Source: Thermococcus nautili (GTDB lineage: Archaea > Methanobacteriota_B > Thermococci > Thermococcales > Thermococcaceae). From it: a stretch of DNA of 64,000 nucleotides. A program made the position numbers and the translations under genes. Positions 1,675-10,960 of this stretch are shown here, piece after piece; within the stretch, counting starts at the first letter, position 1; each line of letters begins with the position of its first letter. Location of the stretch: positions 1,488,001 through 1,552,000 of the forward strand of contig NZ_CP007264.1 in the NCBI RefSeq assembly GCF_000585495.1. Reading direction: 5' to 3'. The notes beneath the pieces are model-generated. The model was not told the origin of the DNA. It searched no databases and saw only the letters and a list, made by a program, of their open reading frames with translations.

Positions 1675-3621
1675 ATGGCGAAGGTGACGGACATAGTGCT
1701 GTGGGATAAGCCCGGGGAGAGGGTTCTCCTCCTCGGAAACCAGGCAATAGCGCGCGGAGCTTTGGAGGCCAACATAGCGGTTTTCGCGGCTTATCCCGGA
1801 ACCCCGAGTTCGGAGCTGACCGATACGATGGCGATGGTGGCCAAGAAGGCAGGAGTTTACATGGAGTACTCCACCAACGAGAAGGTCGCCTTTGAAACCG
1901 CGCTTTCCGCTGCCTGGAGCGGTCTCAGGGCCATGACGGCCATGAAGCACGTCGGACTGAACGTTGCAGCGGATACGTTCCTCAGCGCCGTCGGCATGGG
2001 CGTCGAGGGCGGTTTCGTCATAATGGTCGCCGACGACCCGAGCATGTGGAGCAGTCAGAACGAGCAGGACACGAGGGTTTACGCAAAGTTTGCCAACGTG
2101 CCCGTTCTTGAGCCGATTTCACCCCACGAGGCCAAGGAGATGACGAAGTACGCCTTCGAGCTCAGCGAGAAGTTCAAGCACTTCGTCATCCTGAGGACGA
2201 CCACAAGGAGCTCCCACGCGAGGGGAGACGTCGTTCTCGGAGAGCTCCCGGAGGAGATAAAGACCGGCAAGAGGAAGTTCGGGAACTTCAAGAAGAACCC
2301 CGAGAGGTTCGTTGACATCCCGGCCCACGCGAGGAAGTTCCACCCGCAGATTCTTGAGAAGATTGAGAAGATTCGCGAGGAGCTCAACAACTGCCCCTTC
2401 AACTGGATTGAGGGCGACGAGAACGCGAAGGTCGGTATAATCGCTCCGGGTCTCGCCTACGCCTACGTCAAGGAGGCCTTGGCCTGGCTCGGCGTCGAGA
2501 ACGTCAAGATACTCAAGCTCGGAACGCCCTTCCCAGTTCCATACGGCCTGCTTGAGAAGTTCCTCGACGGACTTGAGAAGGTTCTCATCGTTGAGGAGCT
2601 TGAGCCGGTTGTTGAGGAGCAGGTCAAGACCTGGGCCTACGACAAGGGCTTAACGATTCCGATTCACGGCAAGGACCTCGTGCCGAGGGTTTACGAGATG
2701 ACCACGAGGAGGGCGGTAACGGCCATAGCGAAGTTCCTCGGCCTCGAAACCCCGGTGAACTTCGAGGAGCTCGACCAGAAGTACGAGAAGGTAAAGGGCA
2801 TGGTCCCGCCGAGGCCGCCGAGCCTCTGTCCGGCCTGTCCGCACAGGAACACCTTCTACGCGATTAGAAGGGCCGCAACTCCGAGGGCAATCTTCCCGAG
2901 CGACATAGGCTGTTACACCCTCGGCGTCCTTCCACCGCTCAAGACCGTTGACACAACCGTCGCGATGGGCGGTTCGATTGGAGTTGCCCACGGCCTCAGC
3001 ATCGCCCTGAACGGTTCCGTTGCCGAGGAAGAGCACAAGACGGGCAAGGAGAAGAAGGTAATCGTCGCCACGATAGGCGACTCAACGTTCTTCCACACGG
3101 GACTTCCGGCTTTGGCAAACGCCATCTACAACCGCTCCAACGTCGTCATAGTCGTCCTCGACAACCTCGTTACGGCAATGACCGGTGACCAGCCCAACCC
3201 GGGAACCGGCGAGACCCCGCACGGTCCGGGCAAGCAGATTAAGATTGAAGAGGTCGCGAAGGCCCTCGGTGCCGATTACGTCGCCGTCGTTGACCCCTAC
3301 GACATAAGGGCCGTCGAGAGGACCATAAAGGAGGCCCTGGCCGTTGAAGGTGTGAGCGTCGTCGTCGCGAGGCGCGTCTGTGCGCTCTACAGAATAGGCC
3401 AGCTCAGGCGCGAGGGCAAGCAGTGGCCGCTCTACCAGGTCAACGAGGACAAGTGTACCGGCTGTAAGATTTGTATCAACGCCTACGGCTGTCCGGCAAT
3501 CTACTGGGACGCCGAGAAGAAGAAGGCCAAGATTGACCCGACGATGTGCTGGGGCTGCGGCGGTTGCGCCCAGGTCTGTCCGTTCGACGCCTTCGAGAAG
3601 GTGAGGGAGGGAGAGCTATGA
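1675..3621 (+). CDS. iorA: Indolepyruvate:ferredoxin oxidoreductase, alpha subunit
   Basis: Catalytic large subunit of IOR, which oxidatively decarboxylates aryl pyruvates (from Trp, Phe, Tyr transamination) to aryl-CoA with reduction of ferredoxin, in the cytoplasm. The 648 residues have a pyruvate-oxidoreductase-type N-terminal domain ([13 protein letters not shown]), a TPP-binding domain ([22 protein letters not shown]) and a C-terminal two-cluster ferredoxin region from about residue 590 (CTGCKIC and [12 protein letters not shown]). The ATG at 1675 has GGAGGTG seven bases upstream; a TTG immediately before it is not needed. The gene overlaps iorB by ATGA and follows the acyl-CoA synthetase alpha gene by 40 bp, so the three form one operon producing and then using aryl-CoA. 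Confidence 0.95.
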
Positions 3622-4235
3622 GCGAGATGAGGGAGTACAACATCGTTATCACCGGAGTTGGCGGTCAGGGAATCCTTACCGCGGCGAACCTGCTCGGCTG
3701 GGCGGCGCTTAGAGCTGGCTACAAGGTGCGCGTTGGTGAGGTTCACGGCATGAGCCAGCGCTTTGGAAGCGTTATCGCCTACGTCAGGTTTGGAGAGGAC
3801 GTCTACGGCGCGATGGTTCCAGAGGGTAAGGCCGACGTCATACTGAGCTTCGAGCCTGTCGAAGCTTTGCGCTACATCAACTACCTCAAGAAAGGGGGCC
3901 TTGTCTTCACCAACGCGAGGCCGATTCCGCCGGTTCAGGTCTCGATGGGCCTCGCCACCTATCCAAGCCTCGAAGAGATTAGAAAGGTCGTCGAGGAGGA
4001 CTTTGAGGCCAAGTTCATGGCCTTCGACGCCGAGAAGCTCGCGATGGAGGCCGGCAACATCATAACCACCAACGTCGTCCTCATCGGAGCGCTGACTCAG
4101 ACGCCGGGCTTCCCGCTCTCGGCGGAGCACGTCAGGGAGGTCATAAAGGTCAGCGTGCCGAAGAAGGCCGTTGACGTCAACATGAAGGCCTTCGACTTGG
4201 GCGTCAAGGCCGCGAAGGAGATGCTGGGGCTTTGA
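3618..4235 (+). CDS. iorB: Indolepyruvate:ferredoxin oxidoreductase, beta subunit
   Basis: Small gamma-type subunit of IOR, 205 residues, with the family motif [21 protein letters not shown] at the N-terminus and the [12 protein letters not shown] motif near residue 40. The start ATG 3618 overlaps the iorA stop (ATGA) and GGGAGGGAG lies just upstream, so translation is coupled to iorA. The ORF extends upstream in frame, but that extension is only a shadow of the iorA ferredoxin domain. The product forms the IorAB complex that feeds ferredoxin reduction during peptide fermentation. Confidence 0.95.
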
Positions 4236-4288
4236 GGCCCCACAATTTTTATTAATTCTCATTCTGTTAGTAACTCTGGTGTCCCTCG

Positions 4289-5908
4289 GTGGAGTGCATA
4301 GAGGGGAAGGAGATAACATCAACCAAAAGCGGATGCTGGGCGTTTTCAGACGGCGAGCGATGGCATCTCTTTGAGTGGGTTGATTACCTGCTCAAACCTG
4401 AAATTGATGCCGATGAAATTCTCGTTGGCAGAATACCGGCGAGGAAATTGAAAAACGGACAGTTCTTGATTTCGTTCAAGAACTTCATCGGGAAAACCGA
4501 GATAACGGGTGTTAAAAACGGGGAAATCGTCTTTAAACATCCCGTGAAGGTTCTTTCGCTCAAATTTTTGAAAATATATCCTAACGTCTCTGCTTCCATA
4601 AAAGAACGCGGGATAGCGCTTATCTCGAAAGTCCAAGATTTGTTTGTAGAGAGGCTCATTGAGGATGTAATAAAACACTCCCTCTCAATGCCCTTCCAGC
4701 TGGAATCGCCAACGGGCTTCGCAGTGGAAGAAAGCGATGAGCCCGTAAACGAGCTCTTTGCTTACCATTACCTCCGCTTAAACAAAACTCGAATCATCGA
4801 GGCCTTTGAAACGGTTGTGCACAGAATGAAGCGAGAACTCAGAGTGGAGAAAGAGTGGCTAAGGCCCGACGAGGTCGACGACGTAACCCCAGAAACGCTG
4901 ATTTCAATCACCGAACACCCGGGATACCTGGCACCGGCTGGAGAGGGCGTTCTTGTGGCAAGATACCTGAACGGCTACGTGCCCACCAAAGTTCTCGGAA
5001 GTAGAAAGTATGAGAGCTTCGACACCCCGGAGAACAGGTTTGCAAAGCATTTTCTCGACATTCTCCTCGAGTGGGGTGAGAGGGTAATAAACGCCTTCGA
5101 GGACGGGAAAAAGACCGACCTAAAGCCCATTAGGGAGCTCCTTGAAGAGCTTGAGTTCGTTAGAAGCGATAGCGTCTGGGAAGAGATAGGGGACATGGCG
5201 CTCTTTCCTTACACATCACAGACCCTTCTAAAAGGCGATGGCTACCGCGACCTGCTTGTGCTTTACCGGGAGTTCACGGCGTACTCGCCTTTCTTTGGGG
5301 GGCTTCAAAAGGCAATAGATAACAGGGACATGGCGAAGCTCTACGAGTACTGGGCTTTTCTCAGGCTCGTGGAGGAACTTGGCAAAGTCCTTGGGAAGAA
5401 GGACATCCACATCGTTGTCACGCCTGCGGGAGAGTTATCAGAAAGCGGAGACGTTTACGCACAATTCCACAACGGCTGGAGGCTCTACTACAACAAAAGG
5501 CTAACCCCGAGGAAGTGGAGCTACTCCGTAACGCTGAGGCCGGACTTTTCACTATTCAATGGCGACCCCTCAAAGAAGGGCACGGAAATTATAGGCGTTT
5601 TCGACGCCAAGTTCAAGCTCGACGTTGTTGATAGAACCGAAGAAGTTGAGAACTTGGACGAGCTGGATGAGGCCGCGGAGAGAACCGGAAACTACTGGAC
5701 CTGGGCAAAGCTGGAGGACATTTACAAGATGCACACATACAGGGACGCGTTAGGATGCAGGTTCGCGGTGGTGTTATATCCTGGAAGAAGGAGTGTGTTT
5801 TTTGATGTTCACCATAGAAAAACCAGAGATTTTGAAATAAAATCAATCTCAATTGAAATCCCCACCGGAATCGGATACTTGAGTTTTATTCCGGAGGTGG
5901 CAAAATGA
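4289..5908 (+). CDS. DUF2357-type PD-(D/E)xK nuclease, McrC-like partner
   Basis: A 539-residue protein resembling the DUF2357/PDDEXK_7 family, which accompanies McrB-type AAA proteins as the nuclease arm of type IV-like restriction. The C-terminal part carries a PD-(D/E)xK core: RPDFSLF near residue 417 and GVFDAKFKLD (D-A-K) near 438-440. The first 300 residues are a long beta-rich DUF2357 region with no motif I can name. The GTG start has GGTG 7 bp upstream; a TATA-like tttttatta lies about 35 bp upstream. The next gene starts in the stop codon (ATGA), so nuclease and AAA protein are translated together. Restriction of modified foreign DNA is the likely role; substrate unknown. Confidence 0.75.
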   Translation: MECIEGKEITSTKSGCWAFSDGERWHLFEWVDYLLKPEIDADEILVGRIPARKLKNGQFLISFKNFIGKTEITGVKNGEIVFKHPVKVLSLKFLKIYPNVSASIKERGIALISKVQDLFVERLIEDVIKHSLSMPFQLESPTGFAVEESDEPVNELFAYHYLRLNKTRIIEAFETVVHRMKRELRVEKEWLRPDEVDDVTPETLISITEHPGYLAPAGEGVLVARYLNGYVPTKVLGSRKYESFDTPENRFAKHFLDILLEWGERVINAFEDGKKTDLKPIRELLEELEFVRSDSVWEEIGDMALFPYTSQTLLKGDGYRDLLVLYREFTAYSPFFGGLQKAIDNRDMAKLYEYWAFLRLVEELGKVLGKKDIHIVVTPAGELSESGDVYAQFHNGWRLYYNKRLTPRKWSYSVTLRPDFSLFNGDPSKKGTEIIGVFDAKFKLDVVDRTEEVENLDELDEAAERTGNYWTWAKLEDIYKMHTYRDALGCRFAVVLYPGRRSVFFDVHHRKTRDFEIKSISIEIPTGIGYLSFIPEVAK

Positions 5909-8193
5909 TTAACGAAAAAACTCTTAGGGGTTTGATAAGATTATACTGCCTGCATCTCGACATTGAAAAAAAGAATTTAGACTGGCTGAATAGCAGTCCA
6001 AGGGAATTTAAAGAATTGATAGAACAGGCAGGGAGGAATAAAGACCACAACCTGCTTAAGAAGGCATTTAGTCTTCTGTATTCTGGCAGAAACCTTCAGA
6101 GATTTCACCTTCGAGATAAAGAACGACTAGATGTAATCATGGAGAAGTTTGTATCAGTTCTCATTTCAACATCACCTGAGGACATTAGAAAGAACATTGA
6201 CAAAATTTTAGAAGCATGGCAAGAAGAAATTGATGGACTAGGGAAAGGGTCACTGACAGAAGCATTAGCTTTTTATTACCCAGAATACTTTGCTCCTTGG
6301 AACAACACAACAAAGTGGTACTTCGAGTTATTTGGCTGGGGACGACCAAAGAAATACTCAGAGGTATTGAAGAGATTGGAATTGCTCAGGGACATTATGT
6401 TTCAAATTTGTGGGAAAAAAGTAACTCTTCTAGAAGCTGACCATTTTGGCTGGTGGCTCAGAGACAGAAGGATATTCATACAGACGTTTAAATCCCAGCC
6501 CTCAAAGAATTATAGGCAAACAGTGAACCAAGAAGTAGACATAAAAGTCATCAAAGAGTGTTTTAGTGATAGAGAGCAGGAGCTCTACAATGCAGGATTC
6601 ACGAGAGCATGGGGGAGAAAAGCTAATGAAAAAGTCCCCAGCATTGGTGACATCGTTCTCTTTGGAATTAGAAAAGAGAAAAAGTTATTGAGTCTGCACG
6701 CTTCTTCATGGGCGGTTATCTGTGACAAATTTGACTCCGAGTATTGGGGCAAAACTGGAAGATATAGAAAGGTCTTTCTTCTGAAACCTATCCCAGCTGA
6801 AGGCATCACTGGGTTAGATGCTCTCATTAAAGAGAACAGCGAATGGTATTCAGTATCCATGTTTAGTAACCTGCTGGAACTTAGAACAACGGAGAAACTT
6901 CTTGAGCTGCTGGGGGAAGTGGGAAATAGTATGATTACAAGTACTTCACAATATCGCCTCAAGGAGGAGCACAAAAAAGATGTGAACTTCACGGGATATC
7001 TTTTCAAAAGAGGCTACCTCTACCCACCCTATCTCGTTTCCCAGTTCTATACAGCGCTCAAAACCAAGGGCTTTGTAATTCTTTCTGGCCTGACAGGAAC
7101 CGGAAAGACCAAGATAGCCCAAGAACTTGCACAACTCATTGACCCCACCAAAGAGAACCTCCTGTTCCTCCCCGTCCGCCCGGACTGGAGGGACTCAAAG
7201 GCACTGCTCGGTTATTACAATCCCCTAACCGGAGAATATCAGAGAACACAACTGCTCGACTTCATCTTAAAAGCCATCGAGGACTACGATAAAAACCGTG
7301 AGAACGCCATGCCCTACTTCGTTATTCTCGACGAGATGAACCTTGCCCACGTCGAGTACTACTTCGCCGACTTCCTCAGCGTCCTTGAGAGCGGGAGAGA
7401 CGAGAATGGATTCACAAGGGAACCCATACCGCTCCACGAGGTTGAGAAGGTTGAAAAAGAAGGGGAGATTCCAAGGGAACTCAAACTCCCGCCAAACCTC
7501 TACATCATTGGAACCGTGAACATGGACGAGACCACTTACTCTTTCAGTCCAAAGGTTCTTGACAGAGCTTTTGTTGTGGAGTTCCACGACGTTGACCTCG
7601 AAAACTACCCACCGCAGGATTCGGAGTCAGAGCCATCACCCAAAACAATCAAAGCCCTTAGAGACTCCATCCTAACCGACCTTCGCGGCGAAGAGAACAA
7701 ATTCCTCGCTCGTTCAAAGGAAGAGATGAATAACGCCGTTAGAACGCTAAAGAACAATAAAGAAGAGAATAAAGATTACTGGAAAGTTCTCATTGAACTG
7801 AACAACGCCCTTAAACCCTACGATATGCACTTCGGCTATCGCGTCGTTGATGAGATTGCGCTGTTTTTCCAGAGCGCCAAGGAGAGCCAGGACAAAGGTA
7901 TCGTGGAATTCAGGGACGATGACGAAATCTTCGACCTCGCACTCCTGATGAAAGTTCTCCCGAAGTTCCACGGAAACAGGAAGAAGCTCGAAGAGCCTTT
8001 GAAAGCCATCTTAAAGCTGTGCCTCTCAGAGAACGCGAAAACTAGAGTTCAAGACCTTGGAAGGGAAGCTGTTCTAAGCATACTCGAAAACTGGGAAAAG
8101 GAGAAAGAAAACTTCCGCTTCAAACACACGGCCAGGAAAGTTCTCCGCATGCTCCGCCAGCTGTACGAGATAGGCTTCGCGAGCTTCAGCTGA
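5905..8193 (+). CDS. McrB-like AAA GTPase/ATPase of the DUF2357 system
   Basis: A 762-residue two-part protein. Residues from about 370 hold an McrB-type AAA module: Walker A GLTGTGKTK (about 395), Walker B YFVILDEMN (about 471) and IGTVNMDETTYSFSPKVLDRAF (about 535), which corresponds to the McrB signature loop in the variant form seen in DUF2357-linked McrB proteins. The first 350 residues are an unrecognised, Lys/Trp/aromatic-rich region (for example GDIVLFGIRK and SSWAVICDKFDS) that may read the target DNA. GGAGGTGGC precedes the ATG, which overlaps the stop of the nuclease gene. The 5' half is visibly more AT-rich than the AAA half, suggesting that the recognition domain was exchanged by recombination. 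Energises the nuclease (family knowledge). Confidence 0.8.
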   Translation: MINEKTLRGLIRLYCLHLDIEKKNLDWLNSSPREFKELIEQAGRNKDHNLLKKAFSLLYSGRNLQRFHLRDKERLDVIMEKFVSVLISTSPEDIRKNIDKILEAWQEEIDGLGKGSLTEALAFYYPEYFAPWNNTTKWYFELFGWGRPKKYSEVLKRLELLRDIMFQICGKKVTLLEADHFGWWLRDRRIFIQTFKSQPSKNYRQTVNQEVDIKVIKECFSDREQELYNAGFTRAWGRKANEKVPSIGDIVLFGIRKEKKLLSLHASSWAVICDKFDSEYWGKTGRYRKVFLLKPIPAEGITGLDALIKENSEWYSVSMFSNLLELRTTEKLLELLGEVGNSMITSTSQYRLKEEHKKDVNFTGYLFKRGYLYPPYLVSQFYTALKTKGFVILSGLTGTGKTKIAQELAQLIDPTKENLLFLPVRPDWRDSKALLGYYNPLTGEYQRTQLLDFILKAIEDYDKNRENAMPYFVILDEMNLAHVEYYFADFLSVLESGRDENGFTREPIPLHEVEKVEKEGEIPRELKLPPNLYIIGTVNMDETTYSFSPKVLDRAFVVEFHDVDLENYPPQDSESEPSPKTIKALRDSILTDLRGEENKFLARSKEEMNNAVRTLKNNKEENKDYWKVLIELNNALKPYDMHFGYRVVDEIALFFQSAKESQDKGIVEFRDDDEIFDLALLMKVLPKFHGNRKKLEEPLKAILKLCLSENAKTRVQDLGREAVLSILENWEKEKENFRFKHTARKVLRMLRQLYEIGFASFS

Positions 8194-8217
8194 CATTTAT
8201 TTTCCAAAACCCTTATA

Positions 8218-8255
8218 ACTTACCCCGGGGTAAGTAACTTACGGTGGGGTAAGTT
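8218..8255. repeat. Two palindromes at the start of the ATPase gene
   Basis: A perfect 18-bp palindrome ACTTACCCCGGGGTAAGT (8218-8235) is followed directly by a second copy with 7-bp arms AACTTAC/GTAAGTT (8236-8255) around GGTGGG. The GGTGGGG inside the second copy is the ribosome binding site, and its last bases are the TTG start codon (8254). The site is suited to autoregulation or could mark an element end. A related pair lies at the 3' end of the same gene. Confidence 0.8.
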
Positions 8256-9378
8256 GCTATTCGACCTCCAGCCAAAGAGGAGGAGGGAAGACCTCTACGA
8301 TAGGGAGGAAGAGCTCAGGGAGTTTTTTGAAGCCGTTGAGCTCGGAGAAACGCTTGTTCTTCTGCTCGGCATCAGGAGGCTCGGTAAAAGCTCACTCCTC
8401 AACGTTGCGCTCTCCGAATCAGAAAAGCCGTTCTCCAAGATTGACGTTCGCTCGCTCTACTTTACCCACGGCTCGATTCCTCAAGAGTTGCTCGCGAGAA
8501 AACTCCTCGAAGGTCTCCTCAAGTCCCTGAAGGGAACGGACAAAGTGCGGGTAGAACTTATGAAAGCCCTCTCAAGGATTAAGGGGGTTAGAGTTTCGGG
8601 TCTTCAGGTGGAGTTTGATGAAAAGCCCGACCTTGCGGAGCTCCTTGAGAAGCTCGACTCTTGGGCCGAGAAAACTGAGAGAAGAGTTATAATTGCCTTC
8701 GATGAGGCCCAGTACCTGAGGCTTTCGGGGATACGGTACGATGGGCTCATAGCGTACGCCGTGGACAACCTGCCGAACCTGACGTTTGTGCTGACCGGCT
8801 CCGAGGTCGGAATGCTCCACGATTTTATCGGACTCGACAACCCCAAAAAGCCCCTCTTTGGCAGGTACGCGAGGGAAATAACGCTGAAGAGATTTTCGAG
8901 GGAGCAGAGCAGGGACTTCCTGAGAAGAGGATTCGACGAGCTTGGAGTAAAAGTTCAGGAGGAGGAAATTGAAAGAGTCGTTGAGAGGCTCGACGGAATT
9001 GTCGGATGGCTGACCCTATACGGCTACCTTCGGGGGATTAGAAAGCTCTCCGAAAAAGATGCTCTTGACGAGCTCTTTGAGAGAGCCAAAGCGCTTGTCC
9101 TCGACGAAATTTCGACCCTCACAAGGTACAGCACGAGGTACTGGTATATTCTGAAGGCAATCTCCTTGGGAAACGATTCATGGAGCTCCATAAAGGAGTA
9201 CGTGGAGTTCAAGGCGGGAAAGATAAACGACGCAAAATTCTCGGGCCTGCTGAAGAACCTCGTCAAGTACGGCTACCTTGAAAAGACAGAGGATGGTTAC
9301 TCCATCCCCGACCCAGTCGTTAAGGAAGTCATAAAGAAGACCAACTTACCCCCGGGTAAGCCACTTACCCTCCCCTGA
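8254..9378 (+). CDS. Archaeal AAA ATPase (ATPase_2/PF01637 type)
   Basis: A 374-residue member of the expanded archaeal ATPase family (STAND/AAA-like). Walker A GIRRLGKSS is near residue 40, Walker B RVIIAFDEAQYLR near 145-157, a sensor-like VLTGSEVG near 178, and the C-terminal third looks like a winged helix (SSIKEYVEFKAG to YGYLEKTEDGYSI). The start is TTG, with GGTGGGG upstream; no ATG is available and the protein begins with the LLFDLQPKRRREDLYDRE pattern typical of the family. Both ends of the coding region lie in TTACCCC/GGGGTAA repeats, and the last residues (NLPPGKPLTLP) are translated repeat. The cellular role of these ATPases is not established; it sits 60 bp after the McrB-like gene and may be an independent mobile unit or a system accessory. 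Confidence 0.8.
   Translation: MLFDLQPKRRREDLYDREEELREFFEAVELGETLVLLLGIRRLGKSSLLNVALSESEKPFSKIDVRSLYFTHGSIPQELLARKLLEGLLKSLKGTDKVRVELMKALSRIKGVRVSGLQVEFDEKPDLAELLEKLDSWAEKTERRVIIAFDEAQYLRLSGIRYDGLIAYAVDNLPNLTFVLTGSEVGMLHDFIGLDNPKKPLFGRYAREITLKRFSREQSRDFLRRGFDELGVKVQEEEIERVVERLDGIVGWLTLYGYLRGIRKLSEKDALDELFERAKALVLDEISTLTRYSTRYWYILKAISLGNDSWSSIKEYVEFKAGKINDAKFSGLLKNLVKYGYLEKTEDGYSIPDPVVKEVIKKTNLPPGKPLTLP
9345..9370. repeat. Palindrome and half-site at the end of the ATPase gene
   Basis: CTTACCC-CC-GGGTAAG (9345-9360) is a near copy of the palindromes at 8218-8255, followed by a half-site ACTTACCC (9363-9370) inside the last codons of the gene. With the 5' copies this brackets the ORF almost exactly. 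Confidence 0.7.
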
Positions 9379-9379
9379 G

Positions 9380-10381
9380 TCAGAACTCCCACCACTCCGA
9401 CTGTATCTCCTTCACCCTCGCCACCGTTCTCAAGGCTTCGTACGATGGACTGACCGGAACCTCGCGGATTTCTCCGCTGAGGTAGCCCCTGATGAAGGCT
9501 GGAAGGCCTTTGTCAAGGCCGACCGAGTAGCCACCCTCAAAAATCACCGCGAGCGGATAGCGCGAGAGCGTTGAGCCCGCGTAGGCGAAGAAGAGTTCAC
9601 TGAGGCGAAGCGTCGTCAGGTTCTCCCCGAGGAATCCGTCAAATCCAGCAGAGACGACCACGAGCTTCGGCCTGAACTGGGTCAAGACCGGGAGAACAAC
9701 CTCGTTCCAGGCGTAGATGAAGTCGTCGTCTCCGGAGTAGTGGGGCATCGGCAGGTTGATTTTCGTCCCCTCGGCATTCTTCCCGCCGACGTCGTGCTCG
9801 TAGCCACTCCAGGGATAAATATCACGCTCGTGAAGGTCTACATGCACCGCGTTGGGGTCGTTCCAGAGTAGCTCCTGCGTCCCGTTGCCGTGATGGGCGT
9901 CAAAGTCTATGACCAGAACCTTTCCAGCGAGCTCCTCGGCCGATTTCGCCGCGTAGGCCGCGTTGTTGAAGATGCAGAAGCCGAGCGTTGAGGCGTTGAA
10001 GGCCCTTCCGGCCTTTCCGGCGTGGTGGCCAGGTGGCCTGACGAGGGCAAGGTGAAGGCCTCCGAACTTCAGGGCCAGCTCGACGGCGAGCCTCGACGCC
10101 CCGAAGGCGAGAAGCGAGGCCTCCCACGTGCCGGGGGAAACGTAGGTGTCCGGGTCGAGGTACGAGAAGGTTCTGCTGCTCTCGCGGACGAGCTCAACGT
10201 AGTCCCTTGAGTGGACCTTCAGGAGCTCCTCCTCCGGAACGGGAACCGGCTCGATGGGCTTCCACAGGTTCAACCGCTGGAGGGCCTTTACTGCCCTCAA
10301 CAACCGGTCTGGGTTTTCTGGGTGATAGTTCTCGGGTCTGTGCTCGAGAAAAACGGGAGAGTAGATAACGGAGAAGGCCAA
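9380..10381 (-). CDS. Histone deacetylase/acetylpolyamine amidohydrolase family protein
   Basis: A 333-residue zinc hydrolase of the arginase/deacetylase fold. Visible are the substrate-tunnel motif VRPPGHHAGKAGRAF (double His), the metal ligands DFDAHHGNGTQELLW (D and H) and VSAGFDGFLGE (second Asp), and the C-terminal GGYSVGL with the transition-state residue region. Substrates may be acetylated lysine (for example on Alba or histones) or small acetylated amines; the sequence does not decide. The TTG start at 10381 has GGTGAGGGGG upstream, which overlaps the stop codon of tbp. The gap to tbp is only 6 bp, so the two are co-translated. Its 3' end abuts the convergent ATPase gene. Confidence 0.88.
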   Translation of the reverse strand: MAFSVIYSPVFLEHRPENYHPENPDRLLRAVKALQRLNLWKPIEPVPVPEEELLKVHSRDYVELVRESSRTFSYLDPDTYVSPGTWEASLLAFGASRLAVELALKFGGLHLALVRPPGHHAGKAGRAFNASTLGFCIFNNAAYAAKSAEELAGKVLVIDFDAHHGNGTQELLWNDPNAVHVDLHERDIYPWSGYEHDVGGKNAEGTKINLPMPHYSGDDDFIYAWNEVVLPVLTQFRPKLVVVSAGFDGFLGENLTTLRLSELFFAYAGSTLSRYPLAVIFEGGYSVGLDKGLPAFIRGYLSGEIREVPVSPSYEALRTVARVKEIQSEWWEF

Positions 10382-10387
10382 GCCCCC

Positions 10388-10960
10388 TCACCACTCCTCC
10401 TCTTCCTCGATTAGACCGTACTTCTCAAGCTCGCGGAGGAGCTTCCTAACGGCCTCCCAGGCGTCGTGCTCGCTCTTGGCGCCTGAGCAGACGATTTTAC
10501 CGGAGGAGAAGAGCAGTATCACCGCCCTCGGCTCCTTCACACGGTAGATGACACCGGGGAACTGCTCAGGTTCATACTCACAGTTGGGCAGGCTCAAAGC
10601 GACCGCGTCGAGGTTGAACTCCATGCCGATGTCACCGCTGAAGACCATGTTCTGTATGTCAATCTGGGGAGCGCGGTGGAACTTGGCGCCGATTTTCTTG
10701 AGCATCTGGATGAGCTTGTTGACGGCCCTCTCGATGTCCTCGACGCTTTTAGCACCTGTAACGACGAGCTTCCCGGAGCTGAATATAAGCAGGGCAACCT
10801 TCGGCTCATCGAAGCGACAGATGATTCCGGGGAACTCCTCCGGGTTGTACTTCGAGTTGGGGCATATTTCAATAACCTTCTCAAGGTTCAGCTCCGTAAA
10901 GAGGTCAACAGAAGCGACGATGTTTTCAATCCTGAGCTTTACATTGCTCATGTCCACCAA
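10388..10960 (-). CDS. tbp: TATA-box binding protein
   Basis: Archaeal general transcription factor TBP, 190 residues, two direct repeats of the saddle fold: NIVASVDLF to [17 protein letters not shown] and NMVFSGDIG to [18 protein letters not shown], plus the acidic tail EEEEEW typical of Thermococcales. Recruits TFB and RNA polymerase at the TATA box. The start is taken as TTG 10960 (MVDMSNVK), because GGAGGTG sits 7 bases before it and Pyrococcus TBP begins with the same MVDMS; ATG at 10953 is the alternative. A TATA element of its own (tttataaa, 10996-11003) lies about 35-40 bp upstream. Followed by the HDAC-like gene in the same operon. Confidence 0.97.

Follow-up and report, generated by a model that had tools for sequence, protein, structure and literature searches.

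We propose that the gene at 8254-9378 of the window encodes a self-repressing Orc1/Cdc6-like (STAND/PF01637) AAA+ ATPase, and that it carries an auxiliary second operator pair at the end of its open reading frame. We give this reading a probability of roughly 0.6. The window is the whole 64-kb stretch of Thermococcus nautili DNA that was analysed. A pair of palindromes precedes the gene, a cognate pair closes it, and the sequence of the palindromes changes with the subfamily of the protein. From these patterns we infer both the repression and the role of the downstream pair.

Palindromic pairs at both ends of the gene

The repeated unit is an 18-bp palindrome, ACTTAC-N6-GTAAGT, two copies of which, at a 19-bp pitch, lie at either end of the ATPase gene (Table 1). 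This bears out the original prediction, made from the letters alone, that the gene is bracketed by palindromes at both ends, with a unit wider than the TTACCCC/GGGGTAA then described. The two upstream palindromes were also correctly said to end in the start codon: P2 combines perfect half-sites with a non-palindromic centre, GGTGGG, and its final base is the T of TTG. The left pair spans the region from the TATA box, where P1 overlaps TTATAA, to the first base of the start codon. At the other end, a palindrome and a half-site had been proposed to form the last codons. The palindrome (P3) stands, but the supposed half-site is a second, degraded site (P4), and the whole feature extends to 9380, not 9370. 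The counterpart of P4 in the closest relatives (L023/L024) is ACTTACCCTCCCGTAAGT.

Table 1. Coordinates of the ATPase gene, its promoter and its palindromic sites (window positions)
Feature	Position	Strand	Remarks
Promoter of ATPase gene	8206..8219	+	BRE-like AAAACCC and TATA box TTATAA (8213-8218), from sequence
Operator site P1 (putative)	8218..8235	.	ACTTACCCCGGGGTAAGT, perfect palindrome
Operator site P2 (putative)	8237..8254	.	ACTTACGGTGGGGTAAGT, 19 bp from P1
ATPase gene	8254..9378	+	374 aa, PF01637, TTG start; Orc1/Cdc6-like fold, C-terminal winged helix
C-terminal winged-helix domain, residues 295-362	9136..9339	+	presumed to bind the operators
Codons of tail NLPPGKPLTLP	9343..9375	+	translated operator DNA, beyond the homologous protein
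3′ site P3	9344..9361	.	ACTTACCCCCGGGTAAGC, 1 mismatch
3′ site P4	9363..9380	.	ACTTACCCTCCCCTGAGT, degraded, 2 mismatches

These sites are specific to the gene. Where four to five repeats had been counted, the unit has exactly four matches in the window at up to two mismatches, all of them P1-P4, against a mean of 1.06 scattered matches in shuffled sequences. Across the 1,976,356-bp genome, the full 18-mer at up to three mismatches occurs in three places, all at the ATPase gene, and the reversed control in none. The half-site pattern at up to one mismatch has six matches, three at the ATPase gene and three at one paralogue. As claimed, the repeat in its full sequence is confined to the two ends of the ATPase gene; elsewhere in the genome the half-site recurs only at the promoter of that paralogue. 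Gene-bearing genomes together hold 75 sites, compared with 5 for reversed controls, and no further regulon was visible in this site search.

An ATPase of probable DNA-binding type

The protein matches the PF01637 profile with 61.1 bits (Pfam cut-off 33.2) and has both a Walker A motif, GIRRLGKSS, and a Walker B motif, DEAQ. Residues G39, R41, R42, G44, K45, D150, E151 and Q153 are invariant across 36 relatives. Its AlphaFold model (mean pLDDT 91.8) comprises an AAA+ core and a winged helix, the latter consisting of helices at 295-304, 310-321 and 326-338 and a two-strand wing, modelled with pLDDT above 90. The Pfam MCM_C winged helix-turn-helix profile matches residues 294-349. The closest solved structures are 2qen and 2fna (E 1.8e-70 and 6e-52; Foldseek TM 0.83-0.84), followed by Cdc6/Orc1 proteins, among them 2qby and 2v1u, both with bound DNA, and 1w5s. 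Such a fold would suit a DNA-binding ATPase whose winged helix probably contacts the operators. The C-terminal tail NLPPGKPLTLP is missing from every other subfamily and lies outside all homologous alignment columns; residues 367-374 of the model have pLDDT below 50 and are predicted to be disordered.

The upstream palindrome pair is a rule of the family

The genome of T. nautili holds further PF01637 paralogues. Our family set of 96 genes was drawn from 25 genomes of the genus, each searched for every paralogue, from additional genomes with orthologues, and from two contigs belonging to other phyla. In the subfamilies inspected, either a pair of palindromes or one long palindrome lies between the TATA box and the start codon, and its sequence is specific to the subfamily, for example ACTTAC..GTAAGT in subfamily 0, to which the window gene belongs, AGTATCGGTACCGATACT in subfamily 1, AACTAC..GTAGTT in subfamily 2, CTTGCA..TGCAAG in subfamily 3 and CCACCAGTAACTGGTGG in subfamily 6. 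A search for the palindrome beside other PF01637 genes had been suggested; palindromes do occur at their promoters, each subfamily having a sequence of its own. Members from Marsarchaeota (L018) and Methanomethylicota (L019) also have 5′ pairs, while in a few distant members (e.g. L074, L210) the sites are less clear.

Among orthologues of the window gene, P1 and P2 lie between the TATA box and the start codon in all 22 full-length genes of the genus and in four of other genera. The latter comprise one gene at the same locus in another genus (L229) and three at other loci in a third (L230-L232). P1 is kept in every orthologue with a readable 5′ end, other genera included, and the promoter sequence AAACCCTTATAAC is nearly invariant across the 22 orthologues despite their differing upstream genes. 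The non-ATG starts of subfamilies 0 and 4 coincide with an overlap of start codon and operator.

A palindromic site that overlaps the gene's own promoter, and that changes together with the protein subfamily, is the pattern of an autoregulator. We therefore read the left pair as a putative autoregulatory operator, addressed by the C-terminal winged helix of the protein.

At one paralogue in the T. nautili genome, of subfamily 4 (L009, 1-3436; G000:C1:1270095-1273530), the operator is common to the ATPase and a divergent gene for a membrane protein (2654-3436), which suggests that this neighbour is a target. A duplicate of the membrane-protein gene (701-1477) lies on the far side of the ATPase, with a solo copy of the operator upstream of it, at about 617-653. 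The solo operator beside the duplicated gene suggests a block duplication with loss of one ATPase.

It might be supposed instead that the palindromes act in the transcript as RNA hairpins, controlling translation at the start of the gene and processing or termination at its end. P1 and P3 are palindromic and would indeed form hairpins. However, the centre of P2 is conserved in a form that lacks self-complementarity, P4 has no following U-run, conservation follows the sequence of the half-sites and not their pairing, and the sites vary with the protein subfamily. We consider this extremely improbable, and rejected a hairpin or terminator on the grounds of the P2 centre, the missing U-run and the subfamily-linked variation.

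The second pair at the end of the gene

A copy of the gene's own palindrome at the stop codon is found in subfamily 0, in most of subfamily 3, in 5/5 members of subfamily 6 from the genus, in 2/3 of subfamily 8 and in one gene of subfamily 4 (L204). Each 3′ copy matches its own 5′ copy: mean alignment scores are 17.5, 16.9, 17.7 and 14.3 for subfamilies 0, 3, 6 and 8, against about 6-10 between subfamilies, with the exception of 12 for subfamily 4 versus 0, whose half-sites are alike. The idea of an autoregulatory operator duplicated to both ends hence draws support from the position of the sites, their subfamily-linked change, their conservation across genera and this 3′/5′ match, and we think it probable on these sequence comparisons.

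When the 96 proteins are arranged in a tree, bracketed genes appear in three separate places, and the starred branches call for at least five changes of state. Because members of subfamilies 0, 3 and 6 from other genera are without the 3′ pair, it is best regarded as a derived, genus-level feature. For the same reason an ancestral 3′ pair in these three subfamilies, which the genus tree had suggested, is doubtful. Orthologues at the same locus without palindromes had been named as a refuting case; they exist for the 3′ pair only, and outside the genus.

Within the genus, the 3′ pair is recognisable in 17 of the 22 orthologues and degraded in several (L036, L039, L041, L042). Its absence from other genera and its degradation in these orthologues indicate that it is not essential, and most subfamilies work without one. 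Among the 17 orthologues that have it, mean identity is 86% in the 3′ half-sites, 74% in the 3′ centres and 45% at fourfold-degenerate codon sites, compared with 98% and 92% in the 5′ half-sites (those of P2 likewise 98%) and centres. The 3′ centres differ from the 5′ centres, and the conservation is therefore not explained by one end simply converting the other. This conservation could nevertheless partly reflect recent origin or recombination instead of function.

Depending on the orthologue, the distance from the start of P3 to the end of the reading frame is 35, about 16-20 or 1 base, and P3 is translated as TNLPPGK or KLTPG-stop, or left untranslated. With such varying registers, what is conserved is the DNA and not the peptide, and the NLPPGKPLTLP tail is accordingly translated operator. 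The TTG start and this tail had been taken as marks of an element inserted as a block; both are explained by a coding sequence that overlaps operator DNA.

The best reading of the 3′ operator is that it is either auxiliary or a relic. As a functionless relic, it would have arisen when a block of operator plus gene was duplicated, segmentally or in tandem, and one reading frame was then lost to leave operator-gene-operator, with more recombination leaving an operator alone. Solo pairs are common at the locus, the operator of the subfamily-4 paralogue is found solo at the duplicated membrane-protein gene beside it, just as block duplication and ATPase loss predict, and the restriction of the 3′ pair to one genus, in three parts of the tree, fits as well. 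The greater conservation of 3′ half-sites than of 3′ centres, and much more so than of synonymous sites, speaks against a relic, as does the retention of a recognisable pair in 17/22 orthologues. No remains of a second reading frame follow the 3′ pair at the locus, where a convergent gene abuts it. We regard a relic as possible but unlikely, and favour an auxiliary operator.

At L049 (in G009; about 2560-2680), a subfamily-3 ATPase, the coding sequence of the convergent neighbour seems to extend across the 3′ operator, and its last codons would be the translated repeat on the other strand. After the 3′ pair in L049/L050, a sequence that resembles the beginning of the gene (LFSP/LFNP) was read by eye as the C-terminus of the convergent gene, and hence not as a relic reading frame.

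A constant locus with gene-less alleles

Across the 13 gene-bearing genomes of the genus that were mapped, some of whose stretches end before TBP, the gene order is ACS-IorA-IorB-(McrC-McrB)-ATPase-(HDAC)-TBP, the bracketed genes being optional. The ATPase gene occupies the same IorB-to-TBP locus in 13/13. This interval (window 3624-10960) is a variable hotspot in the genus, in which McrCB, the ATPase and an HDAC-like gene come and go independently. The optional insert between IorB and the ATPase is a two-gene McrBC-like defence module (window 4289-8193; PADLOC PDC-M26A), made up of a DUF2357 plus PD-(D/E)XK nuclease gene and an AAA_5 gene. Its N-terminal part is highly variable between genomes, in contrast to the conserved C-terminal 400 residues encoded by the AAA gene.

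The ATPase gene is present in 24 of 61 genomes of the genus. A check for empty-site alleles in close relatives had been suggested. Gene-less relatives do exist, yet at least ten of them keep one palindrome pair (G003, G004, G007, G011, G029, G031, G039, G050, G058 and, partly degraded, G059). Six others retain one site or a degraded one (G014, G017, G018, G024, G034, G046), and about ten have nothing recognisable; these classes cover part of the 61 genomes. One genome, G044, has a broken gene (L212, 109-2469), a decaying ATPase with an interrupted frame, a C-terminal piece shifted by about 1.3 kb and a 5′ operator site retained. When filled G032 is compared with gene-less G011 and G004, the 4.8 kb to the left are 93.6-93.9% identical and the right flank about 88-91%; P2, the gene and P3 are lost, while one pair and the gene's TATA box remain. 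The same kind of loss is seen in G039, between McrB and HDAC. Gene-less alleles still have one pair, in many cases together with the TATA box of the gene, and are therefore deletion scars and not virgin sites; they seem to have arisen by deletion from one operator pair to the other.

These observations speak against the alternative first offered, that the repeats are the termini of a small mobile unit. The locus is constant in the genomes mapped, the single reading frame encodes the ATPase and winged helix only, without a recombinase, and the relatives that have moved, namely the third-genus genes (L230-L232) and a relocated sister subfamily (L005/L048), lack a 3′ pair. L229, at the same locus in another genus, is without it too. 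Searches of plasmid, phage and viral-contig collections found no copy of the ATPase gene. A mobile unit would be expected to leave empty sites free of its ends, with target duplication in the filled ones, whereas the gene-less alleles keep one pair. On the locus mapping, the gene-less alleles and the collection searches, a mobile unit was set aside as the main reading.

A narrower version would make the pairs attachment sites, with the gene excised as a circle that re-enters a solo pair in a Campbell-like manner, solo pairs then being both scar and target. Clean filled and solo alleles do occur at one position, and the reading frame and repeats are tightly joined. In G021 the ATPase is 72% identical where its neighbours are 80-87%, and in G037 it is 72% where the HDAC-like neighbour is 89%, as if alleles had been exchanged. 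Yet this divergence is explained by faster protein evolution or ordinary recombination, and where a solo allele has the TATA box of the gene itself, loss is the simplest explanation. The lack of any recombinase, the fixed locus in every genome of the genus mapped, the empty collection searches and the moved copies (L005/L048) without a 3′ pair weigh here too, and we consider such a cassette very unlikely.

Proposed mechanism and its significance

In the self-repression that we favour, two dimers of the ATPase would occupy the pair of palindromes that spans the region from the TATA box to the start codon of its gene, and so block initiation; the switch could be ATP binding or some ligand. Within the genus, the subfamily has acquired another cognate operator pair, placed where the reading frame ends. 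This 3′ pair is most likely auxiliary: protein bound at both ends may co-operate, forming a 1.1-kb loop or a road-block at the end of the gene, and could so tighten or insulate the unit. As a side effect the gene lies between repeats, and is often deleted with one operator pair left behind. We speculate further, and regard it as rather improbable, that archaeal Orc-like ATPases form a large family of self-addressed regulators, every one with a palindrome of its own that varies with the protein. Several members in one genus would independently have copied this address to the other end of the gene, letting the protein loop its own gene, and the doubled address would also turn the gene into a cassette, excised time and again and perhaps regained at the pair left behind.

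Our literature search found no described function for the PF01637 archaeal ATPase family, and nothing on its operators or on repeats at both gene ends. The present reading gives a testable function to an abundant family: the sites that its proteins probably bind lie at the very genes that encode them. Paralogues with diverged sites provide a ready series from which to work out the code of recognition between protein and DNA. In one genus 3′ copies arose several times, a natural experiment on the importance of a distant second operator in archaea, and solo pairs mark places of past gene loss.

Comparison with known systems

The PF01637 STAND/AAA+ ATPases 2qen, from Pyrococcus abyssi, and 2fna (SSO1545), from Sulfolobus, share family and fold with the window protein over its full length; their deposited titles cover the ATPase alone. 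Cdc6/Orc1 initiators likewise combine an AAA+ core with a winged helix, and bind specific repeats at origins. Here, in contrast, the sites lie at the gene's own ends and are subfamily-specific, and identity is only 13-15%.

In the bacterial lac and gal systems, a main operator at the promoter is accompanied by a distant second operator, with possible looping. The second operator described here differs in being archaeal, in comprising a whole pair and in lying at the stop codon of a single gene, that of the regulator itself; looping is a proposal. Archaeal regulators of the TrmB and Lrp type have a palindromic site at their own promoter. In the present case, the presumed regulator is an AAA+ ATPase, and its two palindromes, at a 19-bp pitch, extend from TATA box to start codon and are matched by a second cognate pair at the 3′ end. 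The TrmB and Lrp families are the subject of two reviews (PMC4158304, PMC2995911). What appears to set the window gene apart from such autoregulated systems is an AAA+ ATPase as the presumed autoregulator, with a second cognate operator pair 3′ of its gene.
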